From Bugula neritina (Eukaryota > Bryozoa > Gymnolaemata > Cheilostomatida > Bugulidae): a stretch of DNA of 52,500 bases. Location: positions 10,667,463 through 10,719,962 of the forward strand of contig OZ037770.1 in the NCBI GenBank assembly GCA_964035545.1, in the 5' to 3' direction. The notes beneath the pieces were generated by a model. It was not told the origin of the DNA, made no database searches, and saw only the letters and a program-made list of their open reading frames with translations. The stretch's first letter is position 1. Every line of letters begins with the position of its first letter. A program made the translations under genes and the position numbers. Shown here piece after piece: positions 2,496-52,500 of this stretch.

Positions 2496-2547
2496 ATGGA
2501 ACAGATGCTGTTTCTGATATTTGTACTAGCTGCTACTAGCAATTCAG
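2496..2547 (+). CDS. Exon 1: start codon and signal peptide
   Basis: It encodes [17 protein letters not shown] and one further base (phase 1 end). The hydrophobic LFLIFVLAA core followed by small residues is a classic secretory signal. Donor AG|GTTTGT at 2548. The next exon joins in phase to give E-W-V-A-Q. This is the only ATG that gives a signal sequence in the right frame. Confidence 0.75.

Positions 2548-52500: not shown

Follow-up and report, generated by a model that had tools for sequence, protein, structure and literature searches.

At least one thrombospondin type 1 (TSP1) repeat is a defining feature of the ADAMTS proteases. On the mucin side, the sequence GDPH in MUC4 is described as a putative site of autocatalytic cleavage (PMC8660890), and sea-anemone mucin4-like proteins can carry extra N-terminal CUB, ZP or FN3 domains (PMC9080433); MUC4-like proteins with additions at the N-terminus are thus already known. 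The main text of the latter paper does not contain the terms metallo, peptidase, reprolysin or trypsin, and we did not find a zinc protease and a MUC4-like surface mucin in one protein in the titles and abstract starts of the open-licence literature. Here we analysed a locus of Bugula neritina for which this combination had been predicted. We favour, with a probability of about 0.8, a chimeric gene that arose from copies of two unlinked genes, each on another chromosome (C3 and C1), joined inside a Thr/Pro mucin repeat.

The window, by which we mean the whole stretch of 52,500 nucleotides that was analysed, is C6:10667463-10719962 and belongs to a 16-Mb contig in an assembly of 215.8 Mb and 295 contigs. 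Flanks of 10 kb before the window and 30 kb after it were also examined; positions beyond the window carry a plus sign. We chained exons by hand from stop-free segments and splice-site scores, using GT-AG sites and compatible phases. The original prediction was a chain of 44 exons. An open chain with compatible phases was indeed rebuilt, but with a different count: 43 exons in an earlier model and, after removal of one repeat exon, 42 in the final model (2496-52398), each encoding 3,366 amino acids without a stop. The exon that was dropped (49703-49770, 68 bp) belongs to a short exon-mimicking repeat (49703-49846), a reversed copy of which lies in an intron of the C3 paralogue. The exon before it was lengthened to 49414-49517, and three C1 paralogues conserve the resulting peptide, two of them at 91-92% and the third at 86%. 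Pfam was run on the 43-exon product without its mucin tracts, and the changed region was rescanned. The rebuilt open model and Pfam domains of both kinds confirmed the predicted presence of protease and MUC4-type halves in one open exon chain, the features of which are as follows.

2062..2570, plus strand: 5' region and exon 1; 84% DNA match to C3:12903127-12903663, the sole match besides self (two listed)
2496..2547, plus strand: exon 1, with start codon and, by eye, signal-peptide-like sequence
4074..13868, plus strand: exons 2-3 (4074-4285 and 13721-13868), prodomain; 84-88% of amino acids conserved in C3 paralogue A
15090..18840, plus strand: exons 4-9, furin-type RVKR before QTLPD, then M12B protease; Reprolysin_5 at 2.2e-10, PDB ADAMTS-1 chain at 5.1e-13
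17998-18129 and 18676-18840, plus strand: active site HELGHNLDAAHDG, split over these two segments and read from the sequence
19177..20677, plus strand: exons 10-12, ADAMTS_CR_2 Cys-rich domain; Pfam 4.9e-16
21042..23582, plus strand: exon 13, the junction, with two short CC-type Cys modules, a Thr/Pro tract and MUC4-side sequence in a single open frame
23825..29006, plus strand: exons 14-18, first NIDO; Pfam NIDO in two stretches, 3.1e-56
30243..33782, plus strand: exons 19-24, second NIDO; the second Pfam stretch, conserved in the C1 genes
33614..34816, plus strand: exons 24-26, putative AMOP-like Cys region; z 3.3 to one of four AMOP loci
35102..36566, plus strand: exons 27-29, VWD with GDPH; Pfam VWD 4.1e-13
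36650..36916, plus strand: exon 30, C8-3_MUC4; Pfam 9.8e-13
37052..37269, plus strand: exon 31, conserved but unnamed in Pfam; gene model and C1 conservation
37501..49126, plus strand: exons 32-37, EGF-type modules, one of the introns containing an LTR element; EGF_CA in four stretches, 6.7e-27
49414..50347, plus strand: exons 38-40, conserved region with furin-type RKKR; C1 paralogue conservation
50443..52062, plus strand: exon 41, second Thr/Pro tract; composition, and an 18-bp tract of the same kind in the C1 gene
52282..52398, plus strand: exon 42, Cys-rich module; in the gene model, the gene runs on from here into masked DNA

Directly after the window, 5 kb of DNA (+52501 to +57500) are masked. 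Past the masked DNA, we observed open exons for a transmembrane segment (+57859-57974, judged by eye) and for a tail with a stop (+58085-58285). Because these exons are 85-87% identical to a C1 paralogue, we take them as the likely end of this gene, across the masked 5 kb.

The first half of the product contains an M12B catalytic domain, as indicated by the Reprolysin_5 match and by the active site, which follows the pattern HExxHxxxxxHD. An ADAMTS Cys-rich domain comes after the protease, and the solved structures nearest to the first part are those of ADAMTS-1, -5, -13 and -4. Pfam matched no TSP1 repeat in either half at E 0.1, so the protease half is not a canonical ADAMTS; the predicted ADAMTS type holds for the Reprolysin domain, the ADAMTS_CR_2 domain and the furin-type site, and the TSP1 repeat was not found. 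The modelled prodomain exons encode no cysteine, and the usual cysteine switch is therefore missing or lies outside them. The intron between exons 2 and 3 holds minus-strand retroelement reading frames (8098-12939), Gypsy-type by eye, at a place where the C3 relative has about 50 bp. Upstream of the gene, 1500-2050 is a repeat of about 550 bp with at least 39 further copies at 91-93% (best 40 of 705 candidates).

On the MUC4 side, Pfam matched the two NIDO domains, the VWD domain and the EGF repeats that had been predicted, and additionally C8-3_MUC4. The GDPH sequence lies in the VWD domain, at residue 2017. A predicted AMOP domain was not confirmed: there was no Pfam match in the window at E 0.1 or at E 10, and none of the four AMOP matches in the whole genome fell there. 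The candidate region does have a Cys pattern, with weak similarity to one of the four AMOP loci (z 3.3; 6 of 500 shuffles were equally good). Likewise, no Pfam SEA domain was matched, including in the rescanned region, and what had been read as a SEA-like segment is the conserved region of exons 38-40 with its RKKR. Both Thr/Pro tracts have a composition of the mucin O-glycosylation type (721 amino acids at 82% Thr in exon 13, and 526 amino acids at 76% Thr in exon 41). A gel-forming mucin had been offered as one option; with a transmembrane segment and tail on the far side of the masked 5 kb, a mucin tethered to the membrane is the likelier product. An LTR retroelement (38317-46555), the 408-bp ends of which are 98.3% identical, sits in the intron that separates exons 33 and 34. 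The C1 gene lacks it at the corresponding position, so its insertion probably postdates the duplication.

The two halves meet in exon 13 (21042-23582), which encodes the last protease-type Cys region, the Thr/Pro tract and the first MUC4-side residues in one frame. The tract consists of about 119 copies of an 18-bp repeat (82% Thr, 16% Pro), and the repeat region spans 2.1 kb. Since one open exon contains both sides, the join is independent of splicing. Homology to C3 ends at 23340 and homology to C1 begins at 23449. The MUC4-side end of the exon (LPCESK...) matches two places, the window and the C1 gene G2, and the best donor of the exon is the MUC4-side one, with a score of 9.9 versus 3.9 for the next. 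We found 18-bp Thr/Pro repeats in both the C3 and the C1 relatives.

A 286-amino-acid piece of the protease had 47 matches in the genome at E 0.01, all of them on C3 except C6's own, one on C2 and one on C5. Among C5 sequences, C5:17286306-17286893 matches the protease half, partly in ADAMTS_CR_2, within one open frame of 633 amino acids. The closest full-length protease match genome-wide was 85% identical over a 637-base piece. Exon by exon, the protease half is 68-93% identical to gene A, at 12.904 Mb on C3 (C3:12904331-12921487 in the stretch read). Gene A also aligns at the DNA level, introns included and with gaps, over window positions 3744-23340, in pieces of 69-84% identity; the comparison with C3 covered this part and the 5' region (2062-2570). 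In gene A, the counterpart of exon 13 runs beyond the Thr/Pro tract to other Cys, EGF and transmembrane-like exons, as judged from exon order only. Gene B, at 10.903 Mb, has the same layout as A as far as it was read. Neither NIDO nor VWD was matched in the 40 kb of C3 relatives that were read, and none of the 48 NIDO matches in the genome is on C3. From these exons, the C3 relative seems to combine a protease, a mucin tract, repeated Cys/EGF modules, a transmembrane segment and a tail; a search of the open-licence literature for a layout of this type yielded nothing related. As this relative on C3 already has its protease linked to a mucin tract and probably to a membrane anchor, the new step would be limited to a swap of the C3-type anchor and stalk for a MUC4-like one.

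The relatives of the second half lie on C1, where the interval 20.70-20.90 Mb contains several MUC4-like genes on both strands, some of them apparently partial. At 20.807-20.816 Mb, three consecutive copies of the first-NIDO exons precede the remainder of gene G3. There was no match to the protease half in the 200 kb of this cluster at E 1e-3. Gene G2 aligns, with its introns, from window position 23449 to +60707, mostly at 80-86%; the C1 segment thus covers at least 37 kb, from just before the first NIDO to beyond the transmembrane tail. Matches between the MUC4 half and the C1 gene are mostly 72-98% identical, with two that run beyond exon ends at 58 and 71%. The identities of the protease half to the C3 gene and of the MUC4 half to the C1 gene exclude chance. 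Before its NIDO domain, G2 has a mucin tract of its own, made of a different repeat, STDDETTETSPYSTSYEQTG. This native tract is absent in the window, and, a dispersed repeat excepted, the G2 sequence upstream of the aligned start has no alignment there. The closest full-length VWD copy is at C1:21011616 (90% over 546 bases), and shorter stretches reach 98% over 152 bases. Since C1 was read at 20.70-20.90 Mb and this closest copy lies outside, the true donor may be a copy other than G2.

Sequence of the C3 type returns beyond the C1-type segment. About 600 bp of gene A, from the end of the junction exon onward, recur at +63914 to +64577 with 72.9% identity. This orphan piece has a one-base frame difference that puts it out of frame relative to A. 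Its coding part is identical at 118 of 148 sites (0.797), compared with 0.79-0.83 for four non-coding or intron pieces and 0.85-0.92 for six exons. The pieces were picked by hand: six of the 13 exons in the first half, three introns, and both the coding and the non-coding part of the orphan. The exon with the lowest identity, at 0.848, lies fairly near the 0.797 of the orphan, which has 148 sites only. Apart from the orphan and a weak EGF cross-match, the later exons of gene A are unmatched on C6 to +82.5 kb. Before the remnant, +62600 to +63650 matches C3:13108005-13109075 in reversed orientation at 73%, and at +63681 to +63950, after this 1-kb piece resembling C3:13.108 Mb, a short piece of Thr/Pro tract lies inverted beside the direct remnant. 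For the 1.5 kb past the remnant, the longest other matches listed were on C6 (84% over 307 bases and 66% over 421), and the rest, of at least 42, were short repeats. Overall, the locus looks like a mosaic of C6, C3, C1, C3 and C6 sequence, which may have been built in one event.

We estimated distances by NG86 on the 42-exon model, with the Thr/Pro tracts excluded from all counts and with B and G3 as third sequences; earlier estimates with the 43-exon model were nearly the same. Twelve of the 13 first-half exons matched A (exon 1 lay outside the stretch compared) and 11 matched B, and all second-half exons, the mucin tract left out, matched both G2 and G3. The dS between the window and A was 0.286 (0.221-0.362; 505 codons), and that between the window and G2 was 0.268 (0.232-0.312; 1,436 codons). 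On the window branch, dS was 0.177 for the protease half and 0.169 for the MUC4 half. From the similar dS of the halves and the neutral appearance of the orphan piece, the join seems to be of roughly the same age as the copies, within wide intervals and with an orphan of 148 sites.

These distances bear on whether the join could be an assembly artefact, in which protease-gene reads were wrongly linked to those of a MUC4-like gene at the 18-bp Thr/Pro repeat that both share. The junction does lie within a repeat of 2.1 kb, and such sites are prone to assembly errors; both relatives carry 18-bp Thr/Pro repeats. However, neither half equals its relative (85% over 637 bases and 90% over 546), so a misjoin would need two otherwise unplaced genes, and the C3-type sequence beyond the C1-type segment would need a second error. 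The synonymous distances of the two halves to their relatives are also similar, and the contig is 16 Mb long. We therefore consider a misjoin very unlikely.

A second alternative is that two genes are present: the protease gene stops within exon 13 or beyond it, and the MUC4-like part has its own start or is trans-spliced. Separate genes are what both relatives are, and the MUC4-side exons are constrained as a unit. By contrast, the frame is stop-free through exon 13, where the MUC4-side donor is by far the best, and the mucin tract that belongs to the C1 gene is missing. A start or promoter between the halves had been named as a test of the prediction, and by eye we saw no signal-peptide exon there. 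Moreover, the later exons of the C3 gene had no match on C6 up to +82.5 kb beyond the orphan and the weak EGF cross-match. Two genes are accordingly a highly improbable arrangement, and the joined gene remains our preferred reading.

Both halves of this gene show purifying selection, with a window-branch omega of 0.26 (0.15-0.44) for the protease half and 0.144 (0.10-0.20) for the MUC4 half; some of this constraint may be older than the join if the copies were at first separate. In neutral simulations on the 43-exon model (500 runs each), the median number of stops was 10 and 25 for the two halves (range 1-20 and 10-41), and 0 were observed. A recent chimaera that is unexpressed and intact by chance, for which the decay of the orphan C3 exon piece at the same locus could speak, is very unlikely in view of the missing stops and of omega intervals below 1 in both halves. 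The open junction exon, the loss of the C1 mucin tract, the kept 5' region of the protease gene and the constraint on both halves support the one-gene reading of the original prediction, and a single fused, functional gene is very likely.

Such a gene would be expressed as a single transcript from the promoter of the protease gene. The 5' region and head of the protease gene would have been kept, and its anchor replaced by a MUC4-like one with NIDO, VWD, EGF and a second mucin tract. In the predicted product, a MUC4-like membrane anchor would bear a long, glycosylated stalk tipped by a furin-activated M12B protease. If the analogy with MUC4 holds, the VWD domain could be cut at GDPH, and this cut, along with furin cleavage at RKKR, could part the protease-mucin head from the anchor. 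Surface mucus or matrix would then be where the protease acts, whether tethered or shed. Judging from its domains, the product is most probably an M12B protease of epithelial mucus that is tethered to the surface and may be shed; action as a surface-mucus protease is a tentative proposal. A broader and rather unlikely scenario is that a one-time rearrangement of segments from C3:12.90 Mb, C1:20.77 Mb and C3:13.11 Mb made a mucin-stalk protein with its own metalloprotease, freed by GDPH and furin cleavage. If true, a MUC4 module would determine the anchor and lifetime of a mucus-borne protease.

Gene fusions that shuffle domains are usually inferred when the event is long past, whereas one genome here appears to retain near relatives of both parents, the join, the discarded remainder and signs of later selection. 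In-frame mucin repeats can act as joints, because an 18-bp unit preserves the frame for any break between units. If the protein is made, a zinc protease is joined to a MUC4-like surface mucin, and the idea that an animal uses its mucins to anchor mucus-remodelling enzymes becomes open to test.

Compared with known systems, the window gene resembles MUC4-type membrane mucins, including cnidarian mucin4-like proteins, in its NIDO, VWD with GDPH, C8-3_MUC4 and EGF domains, in its mucin tract and probably in a transmembrane segment and cytoplasmic tail, the candidate exons for which lie beyond a masked stretch. It differs from them in its N-terminal protease, prodomain and Cys-rich domain and in having two NIDO domains, and its AMOP domain is unconfirmed. 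With the C3 paralogues A and B it shares the protease, the Cys-rich domain, the CC modules and the 18-bp Thr/Pro tract in one exon; these paralogues, however, go on to other Cys/EGF modules, and A also to a different transmembrane tail. Like ADAMTS-1, -4, -5 and -13, it combines an M12B catalytic domain with ADAMTS_CR_2 and has a furin-type site before the catalytic domain. Unlike the ADAMTS proteases, it has no Pfam match to a TSP1 repeat, and a mucin tract and a likely membrane anchor take the place of their secreted ancillary domain set.
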